Assembly: GCA_023078555.1 (NCBI GenBank)
Contig: CM041201.1
Span: 7,757,172-7,821,171, forward strand
Source: Ulva prolifera
Lineage: Eukaryota; Chlorophyta; Ulvophyceae; Ulvales; Ulvaceae
DNA length: 64,000 bases
Reading direction: 5' to 3'
Position 1 is the first letter of the stretch. Every line of letters begins with the position of its first letter. Shown here one piece after another: positions 1,897 through 32,915 of this stretch. The translations under genes and the position numbers were made by a program. The notes under the pieces were generated by a model that was not told where the DNA came from, made no database searches, and saw only the letters and a list, made by a program, of their open reading frames with translations.

Positions 1897-3475
1897 GGTC
1901 GCGAGCAGCAGCATGGACACGGCAGCGGTGGGTCATGATGATGTGGTCATGCCCCGCAAAGAGATGCTCGTGCGCAACCTCACTGCAGGGTGGCCCGTGG
2001 TGTGGTCTGATAAAGACGCGGCGTGGTACAAGTGCATTCCTTGCCGGGATGTGCTGTCTCGGGAGGTGGCTGCGAGATGTCTGTTTACCTTTGCACGTGC
2101 ATACCTTGCAGCTTTGGTATCTCCTCGGGACGATCCTGTATTCGAAGAACAAGGTGATGCCTCACGTGACACCCCCACCGAGCTCCTCGACGACATTCAG
2201 AAATCCCAGAACGCCAAAGGGGAGGTGACCATGGGTAGTATCGTGAAGTCCTTCAAGGGATGCTCTGGCAAAGTCTTTTGTCACATGCTGATGCTGCTGA
2301 CATGGGCTGGCCACATTGGCCGTTTCAACACACTGGCAATGTCCTAGTACCATTTGTCGACGATCGTTGATGCATATTATGCAAACAAGGAGTGGATCCT
2401 TCGTGCCAGCCCCGAAGTTGCGAAGGTGTGATATTGCAGTCTATCCCATAGATTCGGATGCAAACTGCCACATTTAACTTGCCCTTTTGCTTCTAGTGAC
2501 ATGATTGTGAGGTCTGTAGCATCCCGTGTTGTATGTGCAACCTTGCCACTACTGACTAGCGGTACGGGGCTGAAATTTACATGGCTTGCGTGTGGCGTTT
2601 ATCCGCGGCTGTCGTTATGTAGGCCCGGAGGGACGCGTCCTATCTGTTCCGAGTGTTCAGGCCGTATGTGCGGCTATACGTTATGGCCCTGAAGGCTAAT
2701 GGCGCTATCAACACATTGAAGCCGAAACCGATGCAAGCTTCCGAGCTCAGAAGCTGCGCAGAGGCTACAACCAGCGGCGCCATGACCATCATGTATGGTC
2801 GGGTGACAGCGTTCATCAAGATGTTGTCCGGGGCACGCAACCCAGTGTTTGTGGCACTACGCTGGGGCCATGTTCATTTCATCCCCACGTACTATGTCGA
2901 CGAGGCGACGCGTGAGACACTGGTGCGCGCGCGATTTTGCCATGGCCTCGGTGACTTGTCAACATGCGCATGCTGTATGATTCCACATGTCTCGGCGCGC
3001 GAGTCGATTGGTCCGCCCCGGAAGTTGTTTCTTGCCCGAGTGCGAGTCAACCCGCTTTTCCCACGACAGCGCGGTGGAACCCTTGCGTGGTCTGTACGTG
3101 TCACACGGCTCTAATGCGCAGGTCACATTCATGTGTGGCTTCTCCATTGCGTAGGGTAAAAGCCCACACCACTTTGGGGTCAAGAACATTGTTGTGGACA
3201 ACACGGCCGCCCTCAACGCGGAGGACGCGGACTGGCACAACAACCTCAGCACAGTTGGGGAGCATCTAATGTCCATCGCGCTCCATCAGCGCATCATCGA
3301 TGTCGCTGATTCGGCTGGCCTCCACATTGGTGAGAAGTTCAAGTTGAGTCAACTGCTCAAGCGCCGCAAGTCGGCCGGGGCTGGAGACCCCGATCCATTA
3401 GCGGTCGATGAAATGTGTGCTCTTGTGGAGAATGTGGTTGTTGGCCTGTTCAATGGGGGTCTCCCACATGTTTAG
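1897..3475 (+). pseudogene. Gene A copy 1, exons 1-3 (unrecognised protein)
   Basis: Exon 1 (1,897-2,425) and exon 2 (2,623-2,922) were placed by comparison with copy 2, where the matching exons (25,571-26,099 and 26,281-26,580) have exactly equal lengths (529 and 300 nt). Exon 3 starts at 3,122 and stays in a recognisable frame to about 3,475. Exon 1 encodes MDTAAVGHDDVVMPRKEM and a WYKCIPC motif; exon 2 has RLYVMALKANG and ALRWGHVHFIPTYY; exon 3 has NIVVDNTAALNAEDADW. No known domain was recognised. In-frame TAG codons occur in exon 1 (2,351-2,353, replacing a sense codon of copy 2) and in exon 3 (Trp TGG of copy 2 becomes TAG near 3,154). The copy is therefore dead unless stops are suppressed. 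Confidence 0.7.
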
Positions 3476-3561
3476 GTACACATGCATGGATCCATACACA
3501 TGTGGTGTGATGCAACACAGACACAGGGTCCTCAGTGATGCATGTGGCTCATGCAGGTTTT

Positions 3562-4688
3562 GCTTTTGTCGCTTCCACGGCATGGTCCCTCTGCGGTACA
3601 TCCCCCTCGCGCCATTTGCTATGTCTGCGCTTCTGGCACGGTTCACCGCAGCCGCAGACAAGAAGGCACTCACGCGAGAGCTCCGGTCAAGCATGGTGTT
3701 CGGCCGCATGTTGAGAGCGCAGCTATTCCAAAATGGCCACGAGAACCGTGTCTCTATAGCGAATGGCGGCTTGTGGTCGATCAATTGCGACACGTACCAA
3801 AACGAGTATTTGCACCTGGCCTTTTTGAATGCCGTGTTTGGGGACCTGGTACGCTAAGTCTTGCAGTGCATGTCGGCATTGTTGCATACCTTGCTCACAC
3901 CGCCCCACAGCTTGGGTGTCGTGCTGTGGGGCGGATGGTGTCCACTCGTACAGCGGCGGGTTCGAGTTCTCGGGCGTATCGTACTGTACTGTGGCATGGC
4001 GCGATATGCTGCCACTCCCTCCTTTCTCAACGAGCGATGTCTGTGGCGGTGTTGCATGAGGTTTTGTGGCGTTCAGTGCCGACTACGCGTTGTGTGCGGA
4101 CGTGTATGTGCCTACTTCATTTGCCGTTGTGCATGGTGTGTCTGCGACCCCCACAGCGCGGCGCTGCGGCATACAAAGCCGCCACGCTCGTGTTGTGTCC
4201 CTATCTGCTAATAGCACTCATCCTGATGCACAACGCGCTGATGCTGGGTGCATTTCGTGTAGAGGAGCTAAAGGGGTTTTGCACAATGCTGGGGACAAGT
4301 GGCGAGGTTCAAACGGCATGGCTGAGCCAGCTTGAGAACGCTGGCGGGGAGCACGGCGTTGATTTACGTGACATGCTGAGCACGGCCAGCAGGGGGCAAG
4401 GTCACGTCGTCTCTGGAGGCTATGCGGGTGGTTGGAGAGACTGTTGCAGCTGATGTGTATGACCACCTCCTTGATCGTGACGCCCAGGTGGAGGGCCTCA
4501 CTGTTGAGGACGTGGCGGAAGACGTTGACCTCTGTCGCTTTGGGCAAGAGCTATCGTGTGCGCAGCTGTTTGGTCCGGCCGGGGATTTCATGGTTGAGCG
4601 CATGCGGAAGCGGAAGTGTGTGTATAATGCCGACGCCATGCGGCGGAAGCGACTCACCAAGATGCGGGTCGGAGACATTGAAGTGCAG
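3562..4688 (+). pseudogene. Gene A copy 1, exons 4-5 (unrecognised)
   Basis: Exon 4 (about 3,562-3,848, after ...catgcag and before gtacgc) encodes MVPLRYIPLAPFAMSALLA and IANGGLWSINCDTYQNEYLH. Exon 5 (4,215-4,688, after ...ctaatag and before gtgcgc) encodes MLGAFRVEELKGFCTMLG and an acidic stretch VEGLTVEDVAEDVDLC followed by a basic end (MRRKRLTKMRVGDIEVQ). Exon 5 needs a one-base frame change near 4,410. There is no counterpart in copy 2, which lost this part. I do not recognise the fold. Splice sites are inferred from sequence only. Confidence 0.5.
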
Positions 4689-4858
4689 GTGCGCATGGCT
4701 GCCAATTTTTGGTCTGTATGGTGTCTGCGATATGCGGATCGTGGCTGTAGCTTGTGCTATGTTGATGTTGGCCATGACATGCGCGTCAAACTTGTTTCTG
4801 TTTGCACCTGCTTAAGATGCCTCACAGCAAAACACACCATCAGTGTAGTTCCAACGTT

Positions 4859-5205
4859 TGTCACAATGCATGAGCCTGCGGGCAGCAGTGTGGTGACAGG
4901 TGCACCCATGCACGGACGATCCGCGGATCCAGTGCAGGGGTAAGCCGCCAGCCTAGATTGTCTCGATGTAGTGAGAGAGATCCTGCGAGGGTTTCCCGCC
5001 GTAACCTTGAGTGTTCAGTGTGCATATAAGCATGTGCACACTGAGATCTGTAACCATTCTCCTTACTGTTTCCCGGTACTAGCACTTCCCCTCAACATCT
5101 CTCGGTTCTACCTCTGTGCGCAGCAGGTATGAGATGTTGGCTGTCCTGACCTGACCTGAATGAGGACTGCGCGTCCGCCCCTGTACATAGATAGCTTTTC
5201 TGACA
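4859..5205 (+). mobile_element. Solo copia LTR with ACGTT target duplication
   Basis: The LTR starts TGTCACAATGCATGAG and ends TTTCTGACA, flanked on both sides by ACGTT (4,854-4,858 and 5,206-5,210), a perfect 5-bp duplication typical of copia. No internal region remains, so it arose by LTR-LTR recombination. A TATA-like CATATAAG lies at 5,023-5,030 between inverted TGTGCA motifs. It sits in an intron of gene A copy 1, and its downstream edge is 8 bases before the next exon. Confidence 0.95.
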
Positions 5206-5213
5206 ACGTTCAG

Positions 5214-5415
5214 GTCTCGACGGAAGGTCTCAACGCCATCTTGATGCATCGCAAGGCAGTGCTGCAACACTTCAGCATTGCGGTGCAAAGACCGCCAACA
5301 CTACGCATGATGGATTGGGTGTGCTCCGCTGGCGGAGGTCTCTTCATCGGTATCCTGCGGCACATTCGTGAGGGTGGTCGGGGCCTCGAGCACATGCTGC
5401 AGTACCTACGTCTTG
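5214..5415 (+). CDS. Gene A copy 1, exon 6
   Basis: The exon follows ...acgttcag and precedes gtaggatct. It encodes VSTEGLNAILMHRKAV, then MMDWVCSAGGGLFIGILRHI and a RLGR-type end. The acceptor survives although a solo LTR lies 8 bases upstream; the LTR end TTTTCTGAC may now serve as its pyrimidine tract. No domain was recognised. It is unrepresented in copy 2. Confidence 0.5.
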
Positions 5416-5633
5416 GTAGGATCTCGACTTGTTGGTGGGCAAGGAACACATTGGCACCTCGACTTTGAAGGCGTGCTAGTCGGTTATGGATGTGTGTCAC
5501 ACATGCTTGAACGCTGTGGCCTTGTTGTGTTTGTTCACGGTTGCGACAGAATGTACCACGTCTGCCTACTGCACCTACTGCACCGGTGTCACCTGATGCA
5601 TGCTGAAGATGATCGGTCTTGGCGCTGCTGCAG

Positions 5634-6184
5634 ATAAGGCACCGGTGCCAGTGGTGGTTCGCAGCTACAAATCACTTGACGTGGCCAACCCGCTGAAGCG
5701 CCTGCAAGGCAAGTGTCTGGCGGTCGACCCGAAGAAGGTGGCTGCTGGAGCTGAAGGTGCCGACGAGCTGTGCCTAGCAGACACAACAGGAGGGGCCAGC
5801 CAGCGGTTTCACCTGTGCCCACACCACCTAGGGAAGCCGCTGTTGCTGATCGAGGACTTCCATGGCACCGGCACCGCACGCTTTGTGCGGTATTGCAGCA
5901 ACACGCAGCACAGGCGACTGATGGACATCGCGAACTTCACAGGGTTCGCGACGGTGTGTGACGCGCATCAAACAGGCGCGACGCTACTCGGCCGGAAGGC
6001 TGTGCTGCTGTCGGCCGGAGAGGACTTCCACGGGGTGGCACCTACCGACCTCCGGCTTGACACACTTGTCGCCGGGTCTCCAAACATCCACCGCCGCAAC
6101 CTGGAGCGCTGCGATGTCAGCGTGTGCGAGATGGAACCCGATCGCCGGAAGACTGTCACAGGGTTGTGCCGGAAGCACGTCAAG
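5634..6184 (+). CDS. Gene A copy 1, exon 7: Cys/His-rich block
   Basis: A 551-nt open exon lies between ...gctgctgcag and gtgtgctac. It contains spaced Cys/His groups: KCLAVD, ELCLAD, RFHLCPHHLGKP, RFVRYCSNTQHRR, TVCDAHQTGA, RRNLERCDVSVCEME and GLCRKHVK. The repeated C-x-x-H and RF-x-x-C-x-x-x-x-x-H spacing suggests metal-binding clusters reminiscent of, but not matching, SBP-type zinc fingers. Coding support comes from the open frame and the clean intron (6,185-6,353). Function is unknown; nucleic-acid binding is an inference. Confidence 0.55.
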
Positions 6185-6353
6185 GTGTGCTACGCATGTA
6201 TGTCTGGCGTGCCATGTGCATGCTCTTGACGATGGCCTAAGGTTCGTCAACGGATTTTATGCAGTGACGCTGAATATATATCCGTATGTGGTTCTTAGTT
6301 TCAGGTTCTCGTCATGTAGTCGTGCCTCCCGGCTGACGTGGCGTGTGCTGCAG

Positions 6354-6914
6354 GTTCCACGGGTGATCGACGCGAAAGGCGTCGCAGCCGTGACTTGCAG
6401 TCGTTGTTATAACCTGAAGGAGCAGGGCCTCTTCCCAGATGCTCAGCGCAACTGGAAGCGGCAGTGCTGTGTGTGTCTGGAGCTGGATTCCCCGCAGCAG
6501 CCGCAAGACGCGCGCGTGCTTCCGGCACTGCCACGCCCCCCTTCCGGCGCGCTGGTGATGATCATTGGCAGGATGCCGGCGGGCGCGCTCTGGCCAGGGC
6601 CGCTGACCGGGGCTCGGTGCGCGGTGTACGTGTGGCAGGCAGCTGACGGGGGCCGGTATGTGCCGTGCCCTAACAGTGTGATGACAGCGAAGAGCCGCCC
6701 GCACGGTTCCCGCACGTGTGCGGAGCACAGAGGATGCGTCGTGCATCACACGGACGCGCACGTGACATGCGCAAAGAAATATTGCACTGACTGTCCCGCA
6801 TGGAAGATCGAAGATGCGTGGGTGACACGGGCAGACGGCACGTATGTGAGGAGAGCGTGTGACGACTGCGCGGCGAAGAGAGCGGCAAAGCGGGAGGGCG
6901 CGCGGCTGCAGTAG
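6354..6914 (+). CDS. Gene A copy 1, last exon: zinc-cluster C-terminus
   Basis: The exon starts after the intron end gtgctgcag and ends at TAG 6,912-6,914. It encodes several C-x2-C pairs: VTCSRCYNLKEQG, KRQCCVCLELD, SRTCAEHRGC and CAKKYCTDCPAWK, then CDDCAAKRAAKREG with a basic tail. The C-x2-C...C-x2-C pattern implies two or more zinc sites. The next ATG (7,005) follows after 90 bases on the same strand, so gene A probably ends here and gene B begins, although a single longer gene cannot be excluded. Confidence 0.55.
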   Translation, partial: VPRVIDAKGVAAVTCSRCYNLKEQGLFPDAQRNWKRQCCVCLELDSPQQPQDARVLPALPRPPSGALVMIIGRMPAGALWPGPLTGARCAVYVWQAADGGRYVPCPNSVMTAKSRPHGSRTCAEHRGCVVHHTDAHVTCAKKYCTDCPAWKIEDAWVTRADGTYVRRACDDCAAKRAAKREGARLQ

Positions 6915-7004
6915 CAAGGCGCGCAAGCGGTTCAGTCCCTGACCTTGCATCAGCGAGTGCCGGACCATCCAAGCGCCCTTGAGTGGCTGTTGTGATACGA
7001 GCCA

Positions 7005-8378
7005 ATGTCAAAGGCCATGAGGGAGGCGGGGGGCCCGTGGGCTCGCCCGGGCGAGTGCCACGTCGTGGGCTGCAGCGGCACAATTGTGACGAGCAAGTCT
7101 AAGGTGTGCGACACGCACAGGGATGCTGTGCTGTACCTCCAGAGCAAGGACGGCCAGGACGCGGCGGTTGTGTACCACTGTCGATCGTGCCAGATGTGGG
7201 TGGAGATCGAGCGGCTTGAAGAGGATGGCAGATGCGGGCCACGCTGCCAAGCATTCGGCAGCGACGGCGCCAAGGCGGCGGTCGCAGGCGACAAACACCT
7301 GAGGCGGGTCCTCGAGCGCCTTTGTGAGACGCCGGCTCTCGCAGATGAGCCGCCCCGGGGTCTAGCTCGTGTGCTGGGGCTGGCCACGTGCGACATGCAG
7401 ACGGGAGAACCGAGTCGATGCCACCACGTCAGCCCACACACGGGTCGGTGCACGTCGAAGATCACGGCGAGCCATGCCAGCCGCATGTGCCGGACACATT
7501 GCCATGATGTGGTGCTCAGGGTTGACGGTGGCCAGGGCCCGTCGGTGGTGTCCATCAAGAGGTACTGCCTAAACCGATTCTGCCAGAAGGTGTGCAGTAT
7601 CGAGGGCGTGGGCCTCGTGCGTGGCAGTTACGCGTGTGCCCGCTGCTATGAGGTGCACACAAGGCTGCAGCGACACGCTGCACAGGCACGCCGGCTGCTG
7701 GACGAAGACGCACCCTCCTGCGACGGCAGCGTCGTGCTGTCCGCTGAAGGGGAGGACGTCGGCAGCGAGTCCGATGCGTCTTCGGATTGGGACTCGGAGC
7801 CGCAAGTCATCGGCTCCACCGAGGCTGCTGCAGAGTCGGCTGAGGACGACAAGGTGCCGGCGGGGTACGACTACGGTGACGGGAGCGGGTCAGATTGCGG
7901 GGATGTTGGGTTGGCGCTCGTCGCAGGCATCACCGTCCGTCAGTCGCGACAAGACGCAGCCCAACCAACCACAGGACACGGTGGGGCCAGCACGAGCGCA
8001 ACAGCTGTCGCGCGTGCGCAAGCGCCCTCAGCAGAGGTACAGGGCTCCCCGGCCGTGCCTCTCGGCTGTGTCCGGTGCCGCAATGCACCTTTGTGCGAGA
8101 AGACGCCGCCGGTTGAGCGGGTCGTGGACGGGTACTGCATCACCTGCCTGTCCAGCTTGAAGGACTGCGGCTCTGCTCTGGACGCGATCGTGTTGGTGAC
8201 GACTCCAGGCACATTGGATCGCAGCGCGGGTGCGGCATTCGCTGTTTTTAATGCGCAGCTGAGCATAAATCGGTCACATTCGTGCCTGCTCTGCACTTCC
8301 TGCCGGGTCAGGGTCTGTGTGCTGACATGGAAGTTGCCGCTCGTGCGCTATTGTTTCAGTGGCACTGGTGCCTCGTGA
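7005..8378 (+). CDS. Gene B copy 1, N-terminal Cys-rich exon
   Basis: An ORF of 457 codons opens with ATG at 7,005. Cys/His clusters recur: ECHVVGCSGTIV and VCDTHRD, YHCRSCQMW, CGPRCQAFG, SRCHHVSPHTGRC, MCRTHCHDV, RYCLNRFCQKVCSIEG and YACARCYEVH. These are followed by an acidic low-complexity part (GSESDASSDWDSE) and two more clusters (GCVRCRNAPLCEK, YCITCLSSLKDCG). It resembles gene A exons 7-8 in style, suggesting related zinc modules. The real exon probably ends near 8,220-8,230, since the tail looks intronic. No catalytic motif was seen. Confidence 0.6.
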   Translation: MSKAMREAGGPWARPGECHVVGCSGTIVTSKSKVCDTHRDAVLYLQSKDGQDAAVVYHCRSCQMWVEIERLEEDGRCGPRCQAFGSDGAKAAVAGDKHLRRVLERLCETPALADEPPRGLARVLGLATCDMQTGEPSRCHHVSPHTGRCTSKITASHASRMCRTHCHDVVLRVDGGQGPSVVSIKRYCLNRFCQKVCSIEGVGLVRGSYACARCYEVHTRLQRHAAQARRLLDEDAPSCDGSVVLSAEGEDVGSESDASSDWDSEPQVIGSTEAAAESAEDDKVPAGYDYGDGSGSDCGDVGLALVAGITVRQSRQDAAQPTTGHGGASTSATAVARAQAPSAEVQGSPAVPLGCVRCRNAPLCEKTPPVERVVDGYCITCLSSLKDCGSALDAIVLVTTPGTLDRSAGAAFAVFNAQLSINRSHSCLLCTSCRVRVCVLTWKLPLVRYCFSGTGAS

Positions 8379-8593
8379 AACCGTGTGCACCATCACCTGG
8401 TGACGTGCCGAGCTGTCACCGGTGCCTCTGCGGACATGCTTCGTTTTACTATGTTTATTAATTGTATTAATACGTATCAATATGCTCTCAATCGCTTCCG
8501 ATACGTGTGGTGTGCAAGATTGGTTGTTTGTACATGTGTTGACGCGACTCCCTGTGATGCCATCCGAAGGATTGCTGTGCAGGCACTGTTGAC

Positions 8594-9956
8594 ATGATGA
8601 AACACGCACTCACGGATGACGTCGACGAGTGCGACATCCGGCCGAGGGACGCCCTGAAGACTGACAAGGCTGCCAGGCGGAACCACCGGGAGCGTCTGCA
8701 GTACGAAGCGCTTCCAGAGGAGAAGAAGAAGGTGAAGCGGGCAAAGATGCATGCGAGCTTGAAGGGACCCCGGAGCAATGCCCCCAAGGGACTCAAGAAC
8801 ATTCAGCAAGGCCCAATCGCAAATGCCATGCGCGGCCGATGCGCGCCCAGCCGGCACTGTGAGCATGGTACGGCTACATGCTCTTGCTCCTGTAGATGGT
8901 GTGTGTGCACAGTGTTCAGTCTTATTTTTCTGGAAGGTGTTGTGGAATTTCGTGGCCTGTGTTGTATCCATGCTATGCCTGCCCTGCTACTGCGGTGTCC
9001 ACAGGGGTGGACCTATGTAGTCTGTGTGTATCCTGTGCCGCGCTGGACTCTTGCCTGTGCATGCAGCATCATCAGCGATGCGGGTGATGGACGGCCTCCA
9101 CGCTTTCAAGCTGGCGGACTGGGCGAAGGCCGCAGCGGTGTCTGACGCGGCGGTGGGAATGGTGGTGGAGACTCCAAAGTGGGTGACCAACCGCAGCCTG
9201 CAAATCTTCGCGCTGGAGATGTTCATGCCTGTCGGCTTCACATCTCGAAAGCCCAAGGCCAGCAAGGCGCAGGCCCCACAGGGGGCTGCCTCAGCACGGC
9301 CACGCCCAGACGACGCGCTCGTGGCTCAGGCGGCGCGGAGCCAAAGGTCAACGGTGGTCCGCATCGGACACGCGCAATGTCAGCAGGCAAAAGACCGCGG
9401 CGAGGATGCGCCTTCATGTCTGACGTACTCTGTGCGCGCGGTGCATTTGAAGTGCGCACAGAGCATGACGGAGCCGCTGCGCAGGACCCTGCAGCTACTG
9501 CGCACGACCCTGCAGCTACTGCAGCGGCTGCAGCTGCTCCCTCGGCCGACACTCCCAGCCCTCCTGACGCTGTTTGTGTGGGGCCTCGCACACTGCAGTG
9601 TCGCTGTTTGCGAGAGCAGAGACGCGGTGCCGCAGCTGATCTGGCACTATGCGTATGCGGAAGGCCTGACGCTGGCATGGCAGCTCGTCCTAGTCGCCGC
9701 CGGCACGACGTGGATCAACAGCGATGACGATGTCACGTCTGCGCTGTCCGTGCTGGCGTGCATCCCGCGGGCCGCCCTGATCGGGCTGGAGCAATTTGAC
9801 AAGCAGAAGTGGCCGGAGATCCTGGACGGGCGACGCAAGCGGCGAGGCGGCGACAAACTCGAGCCGGTGCGAGTCTGCCATAACCCAGATACTTCCCAGC
9901 TCGGCCTCAAAACAGAATTTATGAGACTGCACTGTTCGCCCTCCTATTATCGGATG
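8594..9956 (+). CDS. Gene B copy 1, middle exons (two)
   Basis: A first exon about 8,594-8,870 encodes a basic stretch (KAARRNHRERLQYE, KKKVKRAKMHASLKGPRSN), and a second exon 9,067-9,956 lies between ...catgcag and gtgtgcatg. The second is almost identical to 27,404-28,389 in copy 2 but 96 bases shorter: copy 1 lost 32 codons and carries a short LQLLR-T-TLQLLQ duplication at the join, keeping frame. It encodes LHAFKLADWAKAAAVSD, a hydrophobic Leu-rich patch and EQFDKQKWPEILDGRRKRR. No family was recognised. Exons match copy 2 far better than the intron between them. Confidence 0.6.
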
Positions 9957-10040
9957 GTGTGCATGTGTCGTGTCTGTTTTCCGTAGTCATTGTACCGGGC
10001 GTGCATCGAAACAATGGCACCGACGCCCGTGTGCATGCAG

Positions 10041-10892
10041 ATCCCATGGTCTGACGACTGCGACCCGGAGGTCATCGTGATGACGCGTGCGACGCCATCC
10101 GAGTTGACAGGCCTTCAGGCGGCAGCCCAAACGGACGCCACTCGGCAGCGGTTCGAATTCACCGCGGACGCGCGCGTGCGCCCGGTCGGCGACGTCACGC
10201 AAGGCCAGGGTGTCGGGTCGATGCGGCGCGCCGCAAGGAGTCGTGCGGGAGCCAGCGCGGCCGCGATCGACCTGACCGGTGACGGAGGTGATCGCGCGCA
10301 GCCACCCTCCAAGCGGCGCCGCAGGAACAGCAGTCAGCGCGGCCAGGGGGACACCCAGGCGGGCACTCGGGCGGGCACGAGACGCGGGTTGAGATCCGGA
10401 ACCGGCGGTGGCGTGATGGTCACAGGTCCGGCCGCATCGCTGGGCGACCCTGTGCACAGGTCGGCCCCTGCAGCGCCAAAGCGTGCTCGGAGCCCCCCGC
10501 GTGGCGGGTCCCGAGGCGATCCGGGCGCCGGTCCATCCGGTGGACATGCGGGCGGGAGTGGGGGCGGAGGAACTGGGCGCGGCAACGGCGGACATGGAGG
10601 CTATGATGGCGGCAACGGAGGCGGCGGCAACGGAGGCGGGTCTGACAGCGACGGTGGCGGCGGAAGCGGCTGCGATGGGGGCGGCGGTAACGGCGGTGGT
10701 GGAGGTGGCAGAAGGAGGGGTCACTGGGCTCCAATCAGCCACCGCGTGCCCATCTCTGTGCGGACACCGCAGCAGGTGTCTGAGATGCTGCAGTTGTGCA
10801 AAGACACGACGTCGAATCCATTCAGCTACAAGCTGAGGATCGGTGACCAGCCCATGCAGCCCGGCCAGAGTGTCAAAGCCATCACTGGCGCG
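10041..10892 (+). CDS. Gene B copy 1, Gly-rich linker exon
   Basis: The exon lies between ...gtgcatgcag and gtgtgtactt. It starts IPWSDDCDPEVIVMT, has a basic patch KRRRRNSSQRGQG, then a long Gly-rich low-complexity linker (10,545-10,720) and ends with PFSYKLRIGDQPMQPGQSVK just before the helicase exon. In copy 2 the matching exon (28,474-29,323) is two bases shorter with two nonsense changes. The likely role is a flexible tether between zinc clusters and the helicase, with DNA contacts through Arg-Gly runs; that role is inferred. Confidence 0.6.
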
Positions 10893-11076
10893 GTGTGTAC
10901 TTGTCGTGGGCGGCTGACGTGTGTGCATGCATGTGGCGCTGTGTTCTGTGCGCTTGCTTATGCGCTTGGTTCGCTGCGAAACTGTGTGTATTTGTGTGAG
11001 CGTGCCGAGACCGTTGATGATCCCTGATGAATAAGCCAACACGGCCCATACGTTCACCGCGTCTGATTGTATGCAG

Positions 11077-11805
11077 GATCTGCTTGTGGCCGGTAAGCCG
11101 GCAGCCGACCATGCGAACGGCATCATTGTGCTCGGCATGCCTGGCTCGGGCAAGACCGGGCTGATGCTGGACGCGATGGCCCTGTCCATCGTCGACTCGC
11201 CGCTGCGAGCCGCAGCCCAAGGCAGCACCGCCGCGCTGCCGCGGCTGACGCACGACTGTGCCAAAATCATGGTGCACAAGTCGGGCGTCACGCACAACAT
11301 CGGGTACCCCACCGAGACGTGCGCAAAGGCGATGTGTAACTACTTCTGGGAGCCCGCTGTGGAGGGTCGGCCAGCCGGTTACGTCGGCAACGCCATCGAC
11401 CGCGTCGCCGGCCGGAAGCTGCATGTGCTAGAAGAGGTGCAGGCATGGGTGCAGCAGTTGCCGCATCTGCTGAGTCAGCATCAGCGAGCCCTCCAGCAGG
11501 CCAATGCGCAGTGCGAATCGGAGCATATGCTTCGCCGCTGCCGGTACATCCTTGCGTGCGACCCCCACCAGAGTCCGTGCAAGACGTACGGCATCAAGTC
11601 AATCGACCACAACGGGAGGGTGCAGCAGGAGAAGCCAGAGGTCGTGATGCCGTGGACGGCGGCGTTCAACGCGCTCGGCCAGCCTAGCGAAAGCATGCAT
11701 TGGCACATCTTTGCCATCCACGGCCAGCGACGCCTGCGTGGCCTCGGGTTCCGGCTGCTCCACAATGCGTACGCCCCACGCTGGCTGCTGTCGTGCTACC
11801 TCCAT
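11077..11805 (+). CDS. Gene B copy 1, SF1 helicase core, N-terminal half
   Basis: The exon starts after ...tgtatgcag. It shows the superfamily 1 helicase order: Walker A GMPGSGKT (motif I, near 11,138-11,162), a motif Ia-like VHKSGVTHNIGYPTET, a Walker B-like HVLEEVQAW in which the usual Asp-Glu is Glu-Glu, motif III-like YILACDPHQSP (consensus GDxxQLPP), and a motif IV-like HIFAIHGQRRLRG. Spacing resembles the Pif1/RecD branch. It would use ATP to unwind DNA during replication or transposition. The exact donor near 11,805 is uncertain. Copy 2 lost about 155 bp here, including motif IV. Confidence 0.65.
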
Positions 11806-11946
11806 GTGATGTGCTGTGATTTGTTCTGGTCGTGCTGTGCGCTGCCTACAACCGTGACAGGGCCCGGATGTAACCGCCGCTCAGTCCAGGCCATCGGTGG
11901 GACAACTGCACATACGTCGGCTGCGACCGGCTGAGTGAATGTGCAG

Positions 11947-22345: not shown

Positions 22346-22596
22346 TGTGAGCCAGGCATGCCTGAGCATGTTCCGTGAACCAACCATGCCTGGCGCATGC
22401 ACTGTGAGACAGCCGGTGCTGCGCGTATGCTGTGATCCAACCATTCCTGAGCATGCACTGTGAGACAGCCATTCCTGAGCATGCACTGTGATCCAACCAT
22501 TCCTGAGCATATGCTGTGATCCAACCAACTCTGCGCATGCAATGTGAACCAGCCATTCTTGAGCATGCAATGTGAACCAGCCATTCCTGCGCAGGT
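22346..22596 (+). repeat. 28-bp minisatellite, about nine units
   Basis: Units follow TGAGCATGCACTGTGAxxCAGCCATTCC with small changes (for example TGCGCATGCAATGTGAACC). Since 28 is not a multiple of three, the open frames through it cycle and are not meaningful. It ends exactly where the coding-like sequence of gene A copy 2 begins. Each unit holds the near-palindrome GAGCATGC. Confidence 0.85.
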
Positions 22597-25455
22597 TCCC
22601 GACCGAGCCGGCACCGGCAGAGGTCGCAGGGCTGACGGTGGAGGTGTTGGCGTCGTACGCCGACGACGTGCAGTGGAGCGTGCGCTGGCACGCGGTGCCT
22701 CGGGTCAGGAGGTACGTCTTTGCTCCTGTGTCCATGCCCGCCGCGCGGTGGCTTGTTGCAGTGCGCGAGCCGCGTCGGTTTGCAGGGCGATGGCGCATTG
22801 TGTGCAAGGCAGGCGCGGCCACCATCCGAAGGTCCGGCGGCTGTGGCGGCGTGAGGAGTTCCAGGATGTGGCGCGCGGTCGGCGCGGCGACATCCAGTGC
22901 AACGGGTGGCGCGACCAGTACGTTGCCAAGGTCAGCCTTCCGCCAGCGACATCCGGAGGTGCACGGGCACGGGTGGCGCTGGAGGGGTGCGTGAGAGCTG
23001 CACGTGCGTGGCTGCTGAACCCTGAGCGGAAGCGGGCGGTGGCGGCCACGCACACGCCGACGCGCGTGCATGTGATGGACGCGCCGGGGGATGTCACTGT
23101 GCAACAGTCGCAATACGGGCTCGCGTGGTGCGACGGCCTCGCCCCGGCGCCGGGGGTCGACGCTGCGGGTCCGGGGACCGCCATCGGAACACCCAGCGCA
23201 GAGCGGGCGAGGCAGCCTGTGCCCGGGCGCGTCACCGCCGGCATGCACCTCGGCTCCTGCATCGTGCGGTGTGTCCAAACCCTGCTGCGGAATGCCGTGG
23301 CTGGACCAGCTGTGTGCAGCGTCGCCAGACATGACGACGCCAGGGTCGGGCGGGTCCTGTTCATGGCAGCGCGCATGGCTGCTGTGGGCTTGGCTGCAGC
23401 GGAGATGCACCGTGCGGCGAGACCCGCTGGCTGGTCCACAGCATGGGCCTCAGATGCTGTGCCGGCAGCAATCGACGCTGCAGATGGCGTGAGCGCAGTC
23501 CATATGGACTTGCCTGTCCCGGCCCTCGACGTCGGGCCCAGGCTGAAGGAAGGCGGTGGCTGCAGCAGGCCGTCCAGTGATGACGGCGAAGCGAAGGGCT
23601 CTGTGGACGCTGCCGACAGGTACAGGGTCAGGGGTGGCGGGGACAGCGGCGGCCTGCTCGATGAGGACGGTGACGAGGAGGGCGCTGCGGGCGGTGGCGT
23701 CGGGTTGCAGCCTCAGGCGCCGAGGCCTTGGGGACGCGGGGACAGCGGCGGCCTACTCGATGAGGACGGGGACGAGGAGGGCGCTGCGGGCAGTGGCGTC
23801 GGCCTGAGGCTGAGGAAAGGCGGGGACAGCGGCGGCCCGTTCGAGGGGGACAGTGACGAGGAGGGCGCTGTGGGCGCGGGCGTTGGCCTGAGACTCAGGG
23901 GAGGCGGGGACGGCATCGATCTGTGCGTGTCCGATGAAGATGGCGATGAGATGGGCTTCGGCGCCGGCCGGTCGCGCTCTGGCCTTGCGGTGTCTGACCC
24001 GGTAAATGCCGCACCGGCCCTTGTAGCTGCGGCCGTGGCTCCACACAACACATCGGTGCGACCGGAGATCCGCGTCCGAAAGTCACGGCACCAGCGTTTG
24101 ATGACGATGGGTCTCAAGAAGCAGCCAGCTTCCAAGCGGCCCCGTGATGAACCGCTGACCGCGCCCGGGCAGCCAACCCTCGGCAGTGCATCCACTGCAG
24201 CTGCAGCCATTGCCACCGCAGGCACTGTAGGTGGAGGTCCACCACATGTGGCTCCTGCATCACCCTTACGAGCGCCGGATACGTCGTGGATCAGGACCTC
24301 GGCAGGCAGCGGTGGGGCTGGTGAGGGTGGCGGAGCGGTGCGCGCCGGTGATACGGCGCAGCCCCGACACGGCCGCAGCGCTGTGTCCTTGTCAAAGTTT
24401 GTCCTTGCGGACTTTGATGATGATGAACCCGCGTCGAGCGCTCCGAAGGGTGTTGCATCTGCCCCGTGGCAGGCGTCCGTGCCTGGTGGGGCTGCACATG
24501 CGCGGCCTGGTGTTGACACTACATCTGGTGGTGCGGCAGAGCGCGATGGGGGTGGAGGGCGCAGCTATGTTGCTGCCCGTGGTCGAGGTGGCCGGGGCCT
24601 CGGCGCGGCCAGTCGCTATCGTCGCCATGTCATCAACCTCGGCCCCCTGCCACCTGTGGCGACTGCACGTGGCCATGGCAGTCCTACTCTATCGCGAGAT
24701 GGCAACGTCGCAGGTGAACCTCTTCTGTGCACTGGCATGGCTGACCCTGGCGTTGCGTCAAACACTCGCGAGGTCGCAGCTGCGACCACGCTGATGCCGC
24801 CCGCGACACCGGCTCAGATGGTGAGGTAGCACAGCATGCTGATGGGCGTCGGCGGGCATCAGGCGCATGAGCAGGCGGGAGAGGAGGCTGTCACAGGAGG
24901 CGCCGCGGCTGTGGCGCGAGAGGGGGCTGCAACAAGCGGCGCTGCGGCAAATGGCGGTGCCGCGGACGCTGCTGCCATAGACGACGCACATGTCAGCCTA
25001 GGCGAACACGTGATCACTGCGGACGCAAGCGACTGTGGTGTTCCTAGCGGTGCGCGTGAGGGTGGCGGTGCGCGTGAGGGTAGCGGTGTGGATGCACATC
25101 CCGTGCAGCGACTGCATGCCCATGCAACGATCGGTGCTGCCGCTGGGGGTAGAGATATGCCTGGAGACTCGGAGGGCGAAACCGTCCAGCATGACTCCTG
25201 CGCGGACACAGACGGCGACGACGAGTCTTATGTACCATCGGAGCCCGGGTCAGCGCCCAGGAGCCCTCGAGGGGTGATGTCATCTGATGACGGCGACCGT
25301 GCGGCCCCCATCAGCCCCCCAAGGGGGGACGTTTCACCTGGTCATGGCGGCAGCGATAGCGATGTCAGGACTGTGCGCGAGACACATGAAGGTGATGAGG
25401 TCGCGGAGCTGCATCGTCTCGGAGACCTTCTTGACAGCCCCCAGATGTATGCAAG
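22597..25455 (+). pseudogene. Gene A copy 2, N-terminal exon with acidic repeats
   Basis: The frame from about 22,597 reads VAGLTVEVLASYADDVQWSV, shifts one base near 22,810, then continues REEFQDVARGRRGDIQCNGW and runs open, except for one TAG (24,827-24,829), to the donor at 25,455. At 23,620-23,960 a roughly 35-residue unit (GGDSGGLLDEDGDEEGAA) repeats four times. The end MYAR joins the next exon (25,571) in phase to give MYARVMCSSMDTAA, which supports one gene. The rest is Ala/Gly/Pro-rich and probably disordered. The equivalent part of copy 1 would be left of the copia insertion. Function unknown. Confidence 0.6.
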
Positions 25456-25570
25456 GTGTGTAAACGCTGCATTCTTTTGCTCTGTGCGCACGTAGCATTG
25501 CCCAAAGAGGTTGCACATGACGTCACAACACCGTCACTACTTGCTGCATTGAGCCTAACCTGTCCTGCAG

Positions 25571-26580
25571 AGTCATGTGCAGCAGCATGGACACCGCGGC
25601 TGTGGCCCACGACGACGTCGTCATGCCTCGCCGTGAGATGCAAGTCCGCGGCTTAGCCGCGCAATGGTCGGTTTATTGGTCCGAAGTCGACCTAGAATGG
25701 TACAAGTGCATACCATGCAAGTGTCTCGACCACCAAGAAGCAGCTGCGAGGATCGCGCTCACGTTTGCGCGAGGCTACCTGGCGGCGTTAGTTTCGGGAC
25801 AGGACGACCCGGCTTTTCACACACAAGGTGACGAGTCGCGTTCTACGCCGGCCAGTATCTTGAATACTATCACACAGGGCGCGAATGCCAAAGGCGAGGT
25901 GTCGATGAGCAACATTGTCGCCACTTTCGAGAAGTGCCCCGGGCGGATCTTTTGCCAGACCCTGACGTTGTTGACATGGGCCGGCCACATTGGGAGCTTC
26001 AATACGCTCGCCAGGTACAAGTACACCTTATCTCAGGTGGTGTATGCGTATTGGGAGGACCGGCAGCGGCTGTTTCGCGTCGACGCCGACAAGGCTCAGG
26101 TGTGCCCCTCCCCCACTGTGGCATTGCGGCAACTGCTATAGATCGGCTTTGTCCACTACGTGGTCATATGCACCCGTCGGGGCCAGCGTGCGTGTTGTTG
26201 TTGTGCGACCGTGCGCAGTTTGTGTGATGCCATCCAATCGTCACGCCAGCATACAGCGAGGGAGCCTCATCGCCATGCAGGCTAGCATGAAAGCCAGCCA
26301 CCTCTTTCATTTCTTCAAAAGACAAGTGCGGCTGTATGTGATGGCCCTGAAGGCGAACGGCGCGCTGAACACGCTGAAGCCAAAGCCGATGCAAGCCGCC
26401 GAGATCCGCAGCTGCGCGGAGGCAACCAATTGCGGCGCCATCACAATAATCTATGGCCGGGTGACGGCGTACCTGAAGATGTTGGCTGGGCCGCGGAACC
26501 CCGTCTTCGTGGCGCTCAGATGGGGGCATGTCCACTTCATCCCTACGTACTACATGGACGAGGCAAGTAAGGAGACAATG
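25571..26580 (+). CDS. Gene A copy 2, exons 1-2
   Basis: Exon 1 (25,571-26,099) and exon 2 (26,281-26,580) have the same lengths as in copy 1. They encode MDTAAVAHDDVVMPRREMQ, WYKCIPC, LLTWAGHIGSFNTLARYKY and then MKASHLFHFFKRQVRLYVM, NPVFVALRWGHVHFIPTYY. Unlike copy 1, no stops occur here. Divergence from copy 1 is large (about a third of bases), mostly silent or conservative, showing long-term coding constraint. The protein is not recognised. Confidence 0.7.
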
Positions 26581-26772
26581 GTGAGAATTACCTCAGCTGG
26601 CCGTGTTCATGGGACCGCATGTGCATGTTGCTGCCTTTCATCGAACCCAGCGTTGCTGCCTCATGGGATTCCCGTGTGCATGCGGAGCAGTACCTCCATT
26701 ATGCGCGTGGCGTGTGCTAGCTGTTAGATGCCTCGAATGACACGATGTGTTCAACGGGGCCACTGTGAGCAG

Positions 26773-27219
26773 GTCACCTTTATGTGCGAGTTTGCCATCG
26801 CGTGGGACAAGTCTCCGAACGTCTTTGGGATCAAGAACATCGTCGTGGACAACACAGCAGCGCTGAATTAGGAGGACGCCGACTGGAACTGCAGCTTGGG
26901 TTCCGTCGGGGAACACTTGTTGTCAATCGCCATTCACCAGCGCGTCATTGATGTGGCGGACCTGGCTGGCCTGAAGGTAGGAGAGCACTTCAAGCTGAGC
27001 CACCTCATTCAGAAGCGCAACTCCAAGTCCACCCGGCCGAACAATCTTGCAAACTCACCTGTGGTGAAGGTGAGGCGGGCAAAGATGCATGCAAGTATGA
27101 AGGGACCCCGGAGCAATGCCCCCAAGGGACTCAAGAACATTCAGCAAGGCCCAATCGCAAATGCCATGCGTGGCCGATGCGCGCCCAGCCGGCACTGTGA
27201 TCATGGTACGGCTACTTGA
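26773..27219 (+). pseudogene. Chimeric exon: gene A exon 3 fused to gene B exon 2
   Basis: After ...gtgagcag the exon reads VTFMCEFAIAWDKSPNVFG, hits a TAG at 26,868-26,870 (sense in copy 1), continues VGEHLLSIAIHQRVIDVAD, and near 27,070 switches to sequence nearly identical to gene B copy 1 from about 8,730 (RAKMHASMKGPRSNAPKG). Everything between 3,400 and 8,730 of copy 1, including the end of gene A and the zinc clusters of gene B, is missing. The join retains frame in sequence GTGAAGGTGAGGCGGGCAAA. Confidence 0.7.
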
Positions 27220-27403
27220 TCATGCTTCTGTAGATGCTGTGTGTGTTCATTGTCCAGTGTTGTGCTAGAAGTGTGTTGCCGAATTTCATGGCCTGTGTTG
27301 TATCCAATGCCGTGCCTGCCCTACTGCTGCAGTGTCCACAGGGGTGTACCTATGGAGACTGTGTACGTCATGTGCCCCGCCGGAGTGTTCCATGTGCATG
27401 CAG

Positions 27404-28389
27404 CATCAGCAGCGATGCGGGTCATGGACAGCCTCCACGCCTTCAAGCTAGTGGATTGGGCGAAGGCCGCCGCGGTGTCCGACGCGGCGGTAGGGATGGT
27501 CGTGGAGACTCCGAAGTGGATGACCAACCGCAGCCTGCAAATCTTCGCGCTGGAGATGTTCATGCCTGTCGGCTTCACGTCTCGAAAGCCCAAGGCCAGC
27601 AAGGCGCAGGCCCCACAGGGGGCTGCCTCAGCACGGCCACGTCCAGATGACGCGCTCGTGGCTCAGGCGGCGCGGAGCCAAAGGTCAACGGTGGTCCGCA
27701 TCGGACACGCGCAATGTCAGCAAGCAAAAGACCGCGGCGAAGATGCGCCTTCATGTCTGACGTACTCTGTGCGCGCGGTGCATTTGAAGTGCGCACAGAG
27801 CATGACGGAGCCGCTGCGCAGGATCGGCACGGTGGACGTGCGGTATCTGCAGCTCGTGCGAGACGCGGGCGAGCTCCTCATCGCGCGGGTGTTCGACCCC
27901 GCCGCGCCTGCACAACCCCCCGTCCGTGTGCATGCGACGACCCTGCAGCTACTGCAGCGGCTGCAGCTGCTCCCTCGGCCGACACTCCCAGCCCTCCTGA
28001 CGCTGTTTGTGTGGGGCCTCGCACACTGCAGCGTCGCTGTCTGCGAGAGCAGGGACGTGGTGCCACAGCTGATCTGGCACTATGCGTATGCGGAAGGCCT
28101 GACGCTGGCATGGCAGCTCGTCCTAGTCGCCGCCGGCACGACGTGGATCAACAGCGATGACGATGTCACGTCTGCGCTGTCCGTGCTGGCGTGCATCCCG
28201 CGGGCCGCCCTGATCGGGCTGGAGCAATTTGACAAGCAGAAGTGGCCGGAGATCCTGGACGGGCGACGCAAGCGGCGAGGCGGCGACAAACTCGAGCCGG
28301 TGCGAGTCTGCCATAACCCAGATACTTCCCAGCTCGGCCTCAAAACAGAATTTATGAGACTGCACTGTTCGCCCTCCTATTATCGCATG
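27404..28389 (+). CDS. Gene B copy 2, middle exon
   Basis: This exon is 98% like 9,067-9,956 but keeps 96 more bases (27,825-27,940), encoding IGTVDVRYLQLVRDAGELL and an IARVFDP segment. It is open throughout and has the same splice sites (catgcag, gtgtgcat). It therefore preserves the fuller form. The flanking intron upstream (27,220-27,403) is visibly less similar to copy 1 than the exon. Confidence 0.65.
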
Positions 28390-28473
28390 GTGTGCATTTG
28401 TCGTGTCTGTTTTCCGTAGTCATTGTACCGGGCGTGCATCGAAACAATGGCACCGACGCACGTGTGCATGCAG

Positions 28474-29323
28474 ATCCCATGGTCTGACGGCTGAACCCGG
28501 AGGTCATCGTGATGACGCGTGCGACGGCATCCGAGTAGACAGGCCTTCAGGCGGCAGCCCAAACGGACGCCACTCGGCAGCGGTTCGAATTCACCGCGGA
28601 CGCTCGCGTGCGCCCGGTTGGTGACGTCACGCAGGGCCAGGGTGTCGGGTCGATGCGGCGCGCCGCAAGGAGTCGTGCGGGAGCCAGCGCGGCCATGATC
28701 GACCTGACCGGTGAGGAGGTGATCGCGCGCAGCCACCCTCCAAGCGGCGCCGCAGGAACAGCAGTCAGCGCGGCCAGGGGGACTCCCAGGCGGGCACTCG
28801 GGCGGGCACGAGACGTGGGTTGAGATCCGGAACCGGCGGTGGCGTGATGGTCACAGGTCCGGCCGCATCGCTGGGCGACCCTGTGCACAGGTCAGCCCCC
28901 GCAGCGCCAAAGCGTGCACGGAGCCCCCCGCGTGGCGGGTCCCGAGGCGATCCGGGCGCCGGTCCGTCGGGTGGACGTGCGGGCGGGAGCGGGGGCGGAG
29001 GAACTGGGCGCGGCAACGGCGGACATGGAGGCTATGATGGCGGCAACGGAGGCGGCGGCAACGGAGGCGGGTCTGACAGCGACGGTGGCGGCGGAAGCGG
29101 CTGCGATGGGGGCGGCGGTAACGGCGGTGGTGGAGGTGGCAGAAGGAGGGGTCACTGGGCTCCAATCAGCCACCGCGTGCCCATCTCTGTGCGGACACCG
29201 CAGCAGGTGTCTGAAATGCTGCAGTTGTGCAAAGACACGACGTCGAATCCATTCAGCTACAAGCTGAGGATCGGTGACCAGCCCATGCAGCCCGGCCAGA
29301 GTGTCAAAGCCATCACTGGCGCG
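28474..29323 (+). pseudogene. Gene B copy 2, Gly-rich linker exon with nonsense changes
   Basis: It matches 10,041-10,892 but has TGA near 28,491, TAG near 28,535 and one-base losses near 28,492 and 28,712. These break the reading frame ahead of the helicase, so copy 2 cannot make the full protein. The Gly-rich part (28,975-29,150) is otherwise almost unchanged. Confidence 0.75.
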
Positions 29324-29507
29324 GTGTGTACTTGTCGTGGGCGGCTGACGTGTGTGCATGCATGTGGCGCTATGTTCTGTGAGGCTGCTTGTGCACCTTG
29401 TTCGCTGCGGAGCTGTGTGTATTTGTGTCAGTATGCCGAGACCCTCGCTGCTCTCTGATGAATAAGCCAACACGGCCCATACGTTCACCGCGTCTGATCG
29501 TATGCAG

Positions 29508-30150
29508 GATCTGCTTGTGGCCGGTAAGCCGGCAGCCGACCATGCGAACGGCATCATTGTGCTCGGCATGCCTGGCTCGGGCAAGACCGGGCTGATGCTG
29601 GACGCGATGGCCCTGTCCATCGTCGACTCGCCGCTGCGAGCCGCAGCCCAAGGCAGAACCGCCGTGCTGCCGCGGCTGACGCACGACTGTGCCAAAATCA
29701 TGGTGCACAAGTCGGGCGTCACGCACAACATCGGGTACCCCACCGAGACGTGCGCAAAGGCGATGTGTAACTACTTCTGGGAGCCCGCTGTGGAAGGTCG
29801 GCCAGCTGGGTACGTCGGCAACGCCATCGACCGCGTCGCCGGCCGGAAGCTGCATGTGCTAGAAGAGGTGCAGGCATGGGTGCAGCAGTTGCCGCATCTG
29901 CTGAGTCAGCATCAGCGAGCCCTCCAGCAGGCCAATGCGCAGTGCGAATCGGAGCATATGCTTCGCCGCTGCCGGTACATCCTGGCGTGCGACCCCCACC
30001 AGAGTCCGTGCAAGACGTACGGCATCAAGTCAATCGACCACAACGGGCGGGTGCAGCAGGAGAAGCCAGAGGTTGTGATGCCGTGGACGGCGGCGTTCAA
30101 CGTGGTCGTGCTGTGCGCTGCCTACAACCGTGACAGGGCCCGGATGTAAC
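29508..30150 (+). pseudogene. Gene B copy 2, helicase core exon with 155-bp deletion
   Basis: It contains GMPGSGKT, HVLEEVQAW and YILACDPHQSP as in copy 1, but at about 30,102 it jumps past the bases equivalent to 11,672-11,826. The loss removes the motif IV region and the splice donor, so the frame ends at TAA shortly after. The intron before it (29,324-29,507) is about 88% like its counterpart by eye, against about 98% for the exon. Confidence 0.75.
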
Positions 30151-30222
30151 CGCCGCTCAGTCCAGGCCATCGGTGGGACAACTGCACATACGTCGGCTGT
30201 GACCGGCTGAGTGAATGTGCAG

Positions 30223-30679
30223 GTCAAGGGCAGACATTGCCACCATGCAATTCTGGAGGGTGGACCTCGCGACGGACTACTTGTTTTCCACGTGGTGCCG
30301 GTCAGACTTGCGGCAGACGCCGGCGCAGGCTGCGCAAGAGAAGTCCGGCATCAAAGGCGTTAACTACGGCTGGGCAGCGGTGGGGGCGGACGAGGCGACA
30401 TATCGCAACCCCAACTACCCGATCGACCTGTCGGGTGAAGATCGCAGCCTACCCCCGGCGACCGTTGTCATCGCGCCGTACAAGCCGGACTGCAAGGCGC
30501 TGCGTGATATACTGCTCACGCGCGCTGACTACAAGGCGCTGTTCTACACGCTGTCGGCCCTCCCGCATGATGCCCCCTCGTGCCCCGGTGGGCCGACGAC
30601 CTGCACCTTCCGAGACACGGAGTACCACGCGGAGGATGCGTATGCATTCGAGTGCGCGCCCGACTTTCTGTGTGATCGC
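30223..30679 (+). CDS. Gene B copy 2, helicase middle exon
   Basis: Same length (457 nt) and splice sites as 11,947-12,403, with a handful of substitutions such as FRRVDL to FWRVDL. Open on its own but stranded downstream of the deletion in the preceding exon. Confidence 0.65.
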
Positions 30680-30837
30680 GTGTGCAGGCGGCATGTGATC
30701 TGCATGTCGGAATGCCTGGTGTAGTCTGCGCACGTCTCCTCCATCGCGGTGACACATTCACTCCGGGTGTCTGACTGCTACGTAGGCCTGTGCGCTGCCG
30801 CTTTGATGCTGGCTTGATGGGACACGGGTGCATGCAG

Positions 30838-31278
30838 TACGACGACAGACTCCGGCCGGAGGATCGTGGGACCGCTAGAGGACATCGCATTCTCCAGCTG
30901 GGACTCCTTCAGGGTCCACCTCGGTGAGCCCCTGCTGCTGACAGCTTGCCTCGGGGAGAGCCGACCAAACGGTGCGGCGTGCTCGGCTGCAGCATGGGCG
31001 TTTGTGCCAGCATGGCACGTGCGGGCAGAGTTCAAAGCGCGCCTGGCCTTCATGTGCAAGAACGCCGCGAAACTGAAGGTCCCGTGGTCATCAGTGCGGC
31101 TTCGCACGGGTGCTTCTGTGCCACAGCAAGTCGCAGGTTCGGTCGAGAGCATCGCTAACATGCTGGAACGGTTCATTGAGGCAAACACGTCGTACGACCT
31201 CGTGGGCTTGCCGTTCATTGCGATTCGGTCGCCGTCGGACGTGATGATCCAGCAGGTGCTCATGCCGGAGCCCGAGAC
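30838..31278 (+). pseudogene. Gene B copy 2, truncated helicase C-terminal exon
   Basis: It equals 12,562-13,005 with one Leu codon fewer and stops abruptly at VLMPEPE before motifs V and VI. The break is followed directly by an inverted piece of family X. The apparent ORF that runs on to 31,510 is an accidental fusion. Confidence 0.75.
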
Positions 31279-31546
31279 CTTCATCAACGGCTTTCCGCTT
31301 TGCACACCGCCTAGCACCTCCACTGGCCTCTTTCATACACAAGTTCTCCCCTCTGAACCCTCCCACACTCGGCTTCGCTTGTACATTCGGGTCATTCAAC
31401 AGTGCAACATTGTAGACGGACACAATGCGTTCCTTGGCATAGAAGGCCATGCCAATACGCATTGCATCAGGGTGAGCGTATGTTGCCCCCCCGGTTTTGC
31501 CGTGCCGTAGCACCGCTGTCTGAAGCCACACCAAAACACCGTTCGC
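31279..31546 (-). pseudogene. Inverted fragment of family X (X2)
   Basis: Reverse complement of 17,928-18,192 with about 96% identity. On the minus strand it reads VLVWLQTAVLRHGKTGGATY and MAFYAKERIVSVYN in one frame, with seven G where X1 has nine G counted from ACG, confirming the X reading frame. Only the last part of exon 2 is present. It joins the truncated helicase on one side and a hairpin array on the other, marking a rearrangement junction. Confidence 0.85.
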
Positions 31547-31790: not shown

Positions 31791-31796
31791 CCGCCT

Positions 31797-32212
31797 CGCC
31801 GCGGTCTTGACGCCCGTGACCGACGCGCGGACATCCGCAAGTGGAAATTGGTGACGCTGTTGCCAGCCGCGTTCCTGACGTTGGCTGCCACCAGCTTCGG
31901 CACCAACCAAGCTTGGTGGTGGTTGTCGGCGGCGCCACTCTCCGACGACGACGTCTTGATGTCTCGCCAGCAGCAGCAGGCGGCGAAGTTGCGGAAGGGT
32001 GACAAATCGTCGGCGTTGCACACCCTGTCCGCCATTCTCACGCACGGAGCGGAGAGCGTGAAGGACCCCTCGAGCCGGACGTCATCGCAGGGCTCGACGT
32101 GCGCTTTTGGTATGTCGCGCTGCGTGCCATGGCGCACGTCTGCGGCACAGACGCCAACACATCCCAGGCGCCCGTCTCACTGGAAGCGGTAACGGTGTAC
32201 GCTGAGGAGTAG
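31797..32212 (+). pseudogene. Upstream part of PrimPol gene (N-terminal region)
   Basis: A coding-like frame reads DIRKWKLVTLLPAAFLTLAA and QAWWWLSAAPLSDDDVLMSR, shifts one base at a CCCC run near 32,069, then reads LEPDVIAGLDVRFWYVALRA and SLEAVTVYAEE to a TAG. The shift would be repaired by one base at the homopolymer. The position just before the primase domain suggests the N-terminus of the same protein. No domain was recognised. Confidence 0.45.
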
Positions 32213-32213
32213 G

Positions 32214-32915
32214 GTGCACCGCGCCATGTCTGCCAAACCAGGCACGCTGTTCGCCGTGGGCACTGTCGGAACTGTCCACCAGGCCACGAGGACAATACGG
32301 CTGGCTTTTCACGAAGCCTCGCATTTCTTCGAACTGCTTGACCCCCGGAAGCAGATGAACGGCTACATGGATGTCGAGCAGGCTGTTCCGGCGGGAATGG
32401 TAGGGGATGCTGAGGCGGTCGCGGGATTCCTGCGCGAACGGTACTGCTGGCTGCCTGCAGTCACGGAGTTCGCGGCCCAATTCCTGGCGGACCGCATGCA
32501 TGCGACGTCTCCGGAAGACATCACCTGGGTCGTCAAGTGCGGGGACATGCCGCATGGAGCACCCCCCGCGGAAAAGTTCAGCTGCCACATTGTGTTCAAA
32601 CATAAGCAGCGAATCGCTGGGTTTGAGCCCATGAAGATCACCATGGAGACCCTCATCGCCGCGCTGGAGGCGGTAATGCCCTGCTTCGGCCGGATGATTG
32701 ACAAGGCGGTGTACACCTGGTGGAGGTGCGCGGGCCCCCCGCCCCCTCGCGTCTCCTGGTCCTGCCTTGTGCCTCCCCCGACGTGTCTCCCAGCGTGCAA
32801 CACCGCGCGTGACTCTAAACTTGCCCAGTGCAGGTGCATGCGCATGCTAGGGTCGTCGAAAGCACAGGAAGTGGTGCGGGGCCGTGTCACCGCTCCGGCC
32901 AACGTGATGACGTGG
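32214..32915 (+). CDS. PrimPol-like archaeo-eukaryotic primase-polymerase
   Basis: The frame (first ATG at 32,226) contains ASHFFELLDPRKQMNGYMDVE, matching the eukaryotic PrimPol pattern of a Tyr/Phe-E-x-h-x-P strand followed by the catalytic DxE (YMDVE, near 32,365). About 65 residues later comes EKFSCHIVFKHKQ, the second active-site motif (SxH) in the order and spacing of PrimPol proteins. The final catalytic Asp motif should lie further on and was not found, probably beyond an intron that starts with gtgcgcggg near 32,726. Such enzymes prime DNA synthesis and extend the primer. Nearby zinc-cluster and helicase genes suggest a shared replication role. Confidence 0.65.

Follow-up and report, generated by a model that had tools for sequence, protein, structure and literature searches.

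The A-B unit and its copies

The window analysed here is a stretch of 64,000 nucleotides of the Ulva prolifera genome (88.9 Mb in 44 contigs), C6:7757172-7821171 (contig 6). On its forward strand lies copy 1 of the A-B unit (1895-13510), comprising about 17 exon matches that were collinear over the whole of this interval when the window ORFs were searched against C2:1914001-1934000. A and B had been described as two genes. Because the exons are collinear in this diverged contig-2 copy, the two are better read as parts of one spliced unit. Their joint duplication holds. In the C2 copy the gap between the A part and the B part is 105 bp, an intron-sized distance, and several GT donors and AG acceptors, compared by eye and with the junctions resolved in part, coincide between the window and C2. 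The DNA homology between copy 1 and C2 ends at about the stop codon. Copy 1 is made up of an A part that extends to about 5.4 kb, cysteine-rich exons at about 5.6-8.9 kb and helicase exons at about 11.0-13.5 kb; the matched exons encode an estimated ~2,700 residues, perhaps 3,700 if the upstream X part (below) is included.

Between the window and the C2 copy, dN/dS is 0.22 (15 exons, 2,408 codons) at an overall dS of 1.3, which is near saturation, and individual values range from 0.11 to 0.42 in the 14 exons with a computable dS. As judged from these coding sequences, the A-B exons evolve under constraint. The zinc (cysteine) clusters reported ahead of the helicase are real and conserved: in four cysteine-rich exons 46 of the 56 aligned Cys residues are identical to the contig-2 copy, compared with 432 of 811 other residues.

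Both A-B copies in the window are damaged. The first A exon of copy 1 is broken by one in-frame stop (stop-free copies of this exon occur elsewhere on C6), and a repeat insert interrupts copy 1 at 4859-5175. Copy 2 (25557-31277, forward strand) confirms the predicted duplication, as 8728-13004 of copy 1 matches 27066-31277 with 92-98% DNA identity, but the second copy is incomplete. It is a mosaic, since identity in the A part is only 73-79%, and has no counterpart of about 3.4-8.7 kb of copy 1. A further 155 bp, equivalent to 11672-11826 of copy 1 and holding helicase motif IV, is also absent, and the copy is cut at 31277, ahead of motif VI. Upstream of copy 2 lies an X part (22520-25492, forward strand) with an X domain at 23120-23494, a basic motif block at 24071-24292 and an exon termed YARC at about 25355-25480. 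The third A fragment, placed at 52.2 kb by the original prediction, exists but is small, corresponding to part of the first A exon (52281-52479, forward strand; E 5e-7).

Several repeats accompany these units. An inverted 216-bp repeat, 99% complementary, occupies 17976-18191 and 31277-31492, its second arm beginning at the exact point where copy 2 is cut off. GC-rich repeats and a 28-bp tandem array occupy 18.4-20.5 kb and 22.3-22.6 kb; the GC-rich repeats are partly shared with 31.6-31.8 kb, adjoining the PrimPol-like segment described below.

The helicase part

The helicase exon of copy 1 (11071-11778, forward strand) carries motifs I, II, III and IV, and the last helicase exon (12599-13510, forward strand) carries motif VI. 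Two of the three motifs originally reported occur in both copies, GMPGSGKT at 11134-11157 and 29565-29588 and YILACDPHQSP at 11545-11577 and 29976-30008, while MYIGLTRV is single, at 13190-13213, and belongs to copy 1 only. Comparison of exons from seven helicase copies showed that G-x-P-G-x-G-K, [DE]-E-V-Q, D-P-x-Q-S and H-x-Q-x-R are invariant. SF1 motifs I, II, III, IV and VI are all present by motif comparison, a set that bears out the assignment to an SF1-type helicase. The likeness is to SF1B enzymes of the Pif1/RecD type, with which the family shares the Walker A motif, [DE]-E-V-Q, D-P-x-Q, the motif IV Arg and Y-x-G-L-T-R of motif VI. It differs from them in being fused behind a long zinc-cluster part, in the lack of a recognizable motif V and in profile matches that all fall below cut-off.

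No helicase profile in Pfam was matched above its cut-off. In three relatives AAA_19 scored between 0.0007 and 0.15, below cut-off (best 0.0007, 20.2 bits versus a cut-off of 25.1), and in two of these AAA_30 gave 0.006 and 0.02, also below cut-off; AAA_25, a non-helicase P-loop family, and AAA_16 scored equally well or better in two of the three relatives. The window helicase exon itself matched Viral_helicase1 at 0.077 and otherwise only unrelated Pfam families. Searches of PDB, PHROGs and NCBIfam returned nothing convincing, and a structure predicted without an alignment (pLDDT 32) was set aside.

Zinc clusters preceding a Pif1-like helicase are the layout of Helitrons, which the A-B family resembles in this respect and in being multicopy. 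The exons scanned gave no Pfam match to the Helitron Rep/HUH domain, and Helitrons were provisionally set aside; H-[VI]-H is conserved in the C6 and C2 copies, while no such exon was seen in C4. PrimPol is not known from Helitrons. Replitrons were likewise set aside, as the best score in a genome search for the Replitron HUH domain was 19.4 bits versus a cut-off of 28.5. A sub-threshold match in the window at 45.6-46.3 kb (ORF at 45.7 kb; 20.4 bits versus 28.5) received no backing from that search.

Genomic distribution and surroundings

The A-B family is multicopy, with counts that are lower bounds and include many fragments. The helicase exon has at least 47 matches in the genome (at least 40 with a C3 query), the A exon at least 73 (at least 57 with a C4 query) and the last exon at least 48. 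Extended by 50 kb on either side, the matches merge into 13 regions on C1-C7 that make up 2.5% of the genome; the small contigs from C13 up hold many copies of the C2 type. A centromeric reading of these regions was set aside, because C1, C2, C3, C4 and C6 each have two or three and none was seen on C8-C12 in these searches. On C6 two copies separated by about 18 kb form a pair that is repeated about 135 kb away, showing segmental duplication at least on this contig. The copies sit in clusters, a picture that does not show the mobility proposed in the original prediction; no element ends or target duplications were mapped.

The surroundings of A-B are retrotransposon-like, as judged from sub-threshold protease and zinc-knuckle matches, and together with the spliced genes they mark the DNA as eukaryotic. 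Two related units, at 46.6-50.4 kb and 60.7-64.0 kb, each contain an aspartyl-protease match below cut-off; in the latter one stop codon splits a long frame between its gag-like and protease parts. Gag-like frames on the reverse strand at 1-1203, presumably copia-type, have a zinc-knuckle match just below cut-off. A repeat of ~320-350 bp beginning TGTCACAATGCATG is found in the window at 1505-1858 (reverse strand), 4859-5175, 40438-40787 and 57253-57607, and at 2625-2977 of locus L073. Its copies are 80-90% alike; one of them interrupts the A-B unit and another lies next to the PrimPol on C4. The repeat is probably a non-autonomous mobile element. The window contains no match to tRNAs or Rfam families, and the one stretch compared with phage DNA was also without a match.

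Clustered copies, constraint and many introns at matching places are what would be expected of an ordinary, fast-evolving host gene family, encoding a nuclear zinc-cluster helicase, without a selfish history and expanded into tandem and segmental clusters. We regard this explanation as rather unlikely, given the many broken copies and fragments, the retrotransposon-like surroundings and the failure to match the family in any of the libraries tried.

A PrimPol-like segment beside copy 2

Downstream of copy 2, exon 1 of a PrimPol-like segment (32226-32725, forward strand) contains YMDVE (32364-32378) and KFSCHIVF (32574-32597), both where they had been predicted, followed by D-x2-VYT-x2-R. A putative intron of 108 bp (32726-32833, forward strand; GT...AG), at the same position as in the C4 copy, separates it from the start of exon 2 (32834-32916, forward strand), which contains R-x5-K and at the end of which homology to the C1 copy stops. 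Read across this intron, the window sequence gives MDVE, KFSCH and then D-x2-VYT-x2-R-C-M-R-x5-K. The C4 PrimPol reads DMD, K-S-S-F-H and D-x2-VYS-x2-R-P-F-R-x5-K. Its intron (spliced by eye) lies at the matching place, and a C-x5-H stretch, a conceivable candidate for a UL52-type zinc finger, was noted downstream by eye. Thus motifs A (D-x-E), B (S-x-H) and C (D) of the archaeo-eukaryotic primase (AEP) type, with their R, R and K neighbours, are present in the window, and DMD and K-S-S-F-H are the C4 equivalents. In human PrimPol the corresponding residues are D114, E116, K165, S167, H169, D280, R288, R291 and K297, as listed in PMC10778844. Spacing within the motifs equals that of this eukaryotic PrimPol (CCDC111), including D+8R+11R+17K; the distance from motif A to motif B is longer here, and the window copy is a fragment.

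A loose PrimPol motif pattern, written after the match had been seen, gave two overlapping matches in the window compared with 0.01 per shuffle. Searches of Pfam, PHROGs, NCBIfam and PDB found no match to the PrimPol sequence, and a structure predicted without an alignment (pLDDT 43) yielded a Foldseek list that was noise and was set aside. On its motifs, the segment is best classified as a PrimPol-type AEP. The PrimPol reported beside copy 2 therefore appears genuine by motifs and spacing, but it forms a separate segment and is not part of the copy 2 gene.

The window PrimPol shares about 690 bp at 88% identity with a copy at C1:12.065 Mb (dN/dS 0.24 or 0.37, according to where the limits are set), while the flanks of the two are unrelated. 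Since the flanks differ, the segment may be an AEP fragment brought next to copy 2 by rearrangement. Apart from the C4 place, a dispersed relative is found at 19 places (on C1-C5, C7, C9 and C34), none of them in the window. Its copies on C9, C3 and C5 are 100% identical (rounded), and a frame of 302 residues is open in 11 of the 19 places. In the one copy read, Arg replaces the His of motif B and motif A lacks its second acid. It is puzzling that the frame should be kept open so often when the copy read is without catalytic residues.

Linkage between PrimPol and A-B

The original prediction placed the primase in the same element as A and B. In the linkage test four PrimPol queries, which do find each other across families, were used with E values up to 1. 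None of 30 A loci read had a PrimPol match in the upstream stretch, a result that does not support the proposal. PrimPol largely fails to adjoin A/B in other copies: in 29 of the 30 loci the normal upstream exon, YARC, stands directly before A. The exception is copy 1 of the window (L066), where a repeat takes its place. At C4:1.107 Mb, by contrast with the loci read, a motif block, a repeat, PrimPol and A follow one another on one strand; an A gene 93% identical to this one, also on C4, has no PrimPol beside it.

PrimPol gave 23 matches, five of which reach motif C. Three of these five fall within A-B regions (P 1.5e-4); with the window excluded the figure is two of four (P 0.0036). The region width and the grouping rule were chosen after the data had been seen. 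The C1 copy falls 0.5 kb outside its A-B region. Among the other matches on large contigs, one of 17 is in such a region, and the places of the dispersed relative have no A or helicase match nearby, except C3:2.68 Mb, which is 8 kb from a helicase fragment. Because of the C4 adjacency and the regional enrichment, a looser link between PrimPol and A-B may exist. The sequences are an unusual clustered family of giant helicases, TE-like or of the host, and a separate PrimPol family side by side, with a single replicative element possible but unproven.

In such an element, self-replicating and eukaryotic, PrimPol would prime and the helicase unwind, most copies having lost PrimPol. The C4 locus, where PrimPol immediately precedes A and shares its strand, and the three motif-C copies in A-B regions, with the C1 copy 0.5 kb outside its region, are consistent with this proposal. 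The 30 A loci without PrimPol upstream, the nearest paralogue of the A gene at C4, which also lacks it, and the dispersed PrimPols, which apart from the C3:2.68 Mb copy stand away from A and helicase matches, make it improbable. In its boldest form the proposal would add to the replicative elements of eukaryotes a new class, PrimPol plus a giant zinc-cluster SF1 helicase, preserved in line at C4:1.107 Mb, with PrimPol lost in most clusters and a relative lacking the motif B His spread alone to 19 places; we give this little credence. No primase transposon with this layout appeared in the titles and abstract openings of the literature searched, which does not prove its absence.

Viruses commonly pair a helicase with an AEP primase, and the remains of an integrated DNA virus could supply both. 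Herpesviruses, for example, combine an SF1 helicase with an AEP primase (UL5/UL52). The likeness extends to these protein types, whereas here helicase and PrimPol are unlinked genes in nearly every copy; the herpes-type UL52 profile PF03121 had no match anywhere, its control likewise going unmatched. Polinton-like viruses and virophages also combine a helicase and an AEP primase when integrated; the window differs from them in having SF1 rather than SF3 motifs, dense introns and no capsid gene among the ORFs scanned. The dense introns, the lack of a capsid or packaging match (Pfam, a subset of window ORFs) and pattern searches through 2.9 million viral contigs, which confirmed no relative of the helicase, PrimPol or A, render a viral origin highly improbable.

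Interpretation

The explanation that we prefer, with a probability of roughly one half, takes A-B to be a single spliced gene of very large size. Its many copies lie in clusters, and the family is probably selfish or transposon-derived in origin; the PrimPol in the window would be a fragment belonging to a different family, of the AEP type. A single A-B transcript would encode zinc clusters followed by a C-terminal SF1 helicase, the clusters possibly binding DNA or RNA and the helicase unwinding it. The family may now multiply at least partly through segmental duplication and recombination between copies. Introns this dense are unusual in a transposon, and the enrichment of motif-C PrimPols together with the C4 adjacency speaks for some tie between the two families, observations that both weigh against this explanation.

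If PrimPol and the helicase did constitute one element, they would represent a kind of eukaryotic transposon with its own primase. Under the preferred explanation, these clustered, fast-diverging giant helicase genes, unmatched in the libraries tried, would be an unusual element that is domesticated, decaying or multiplying locally.
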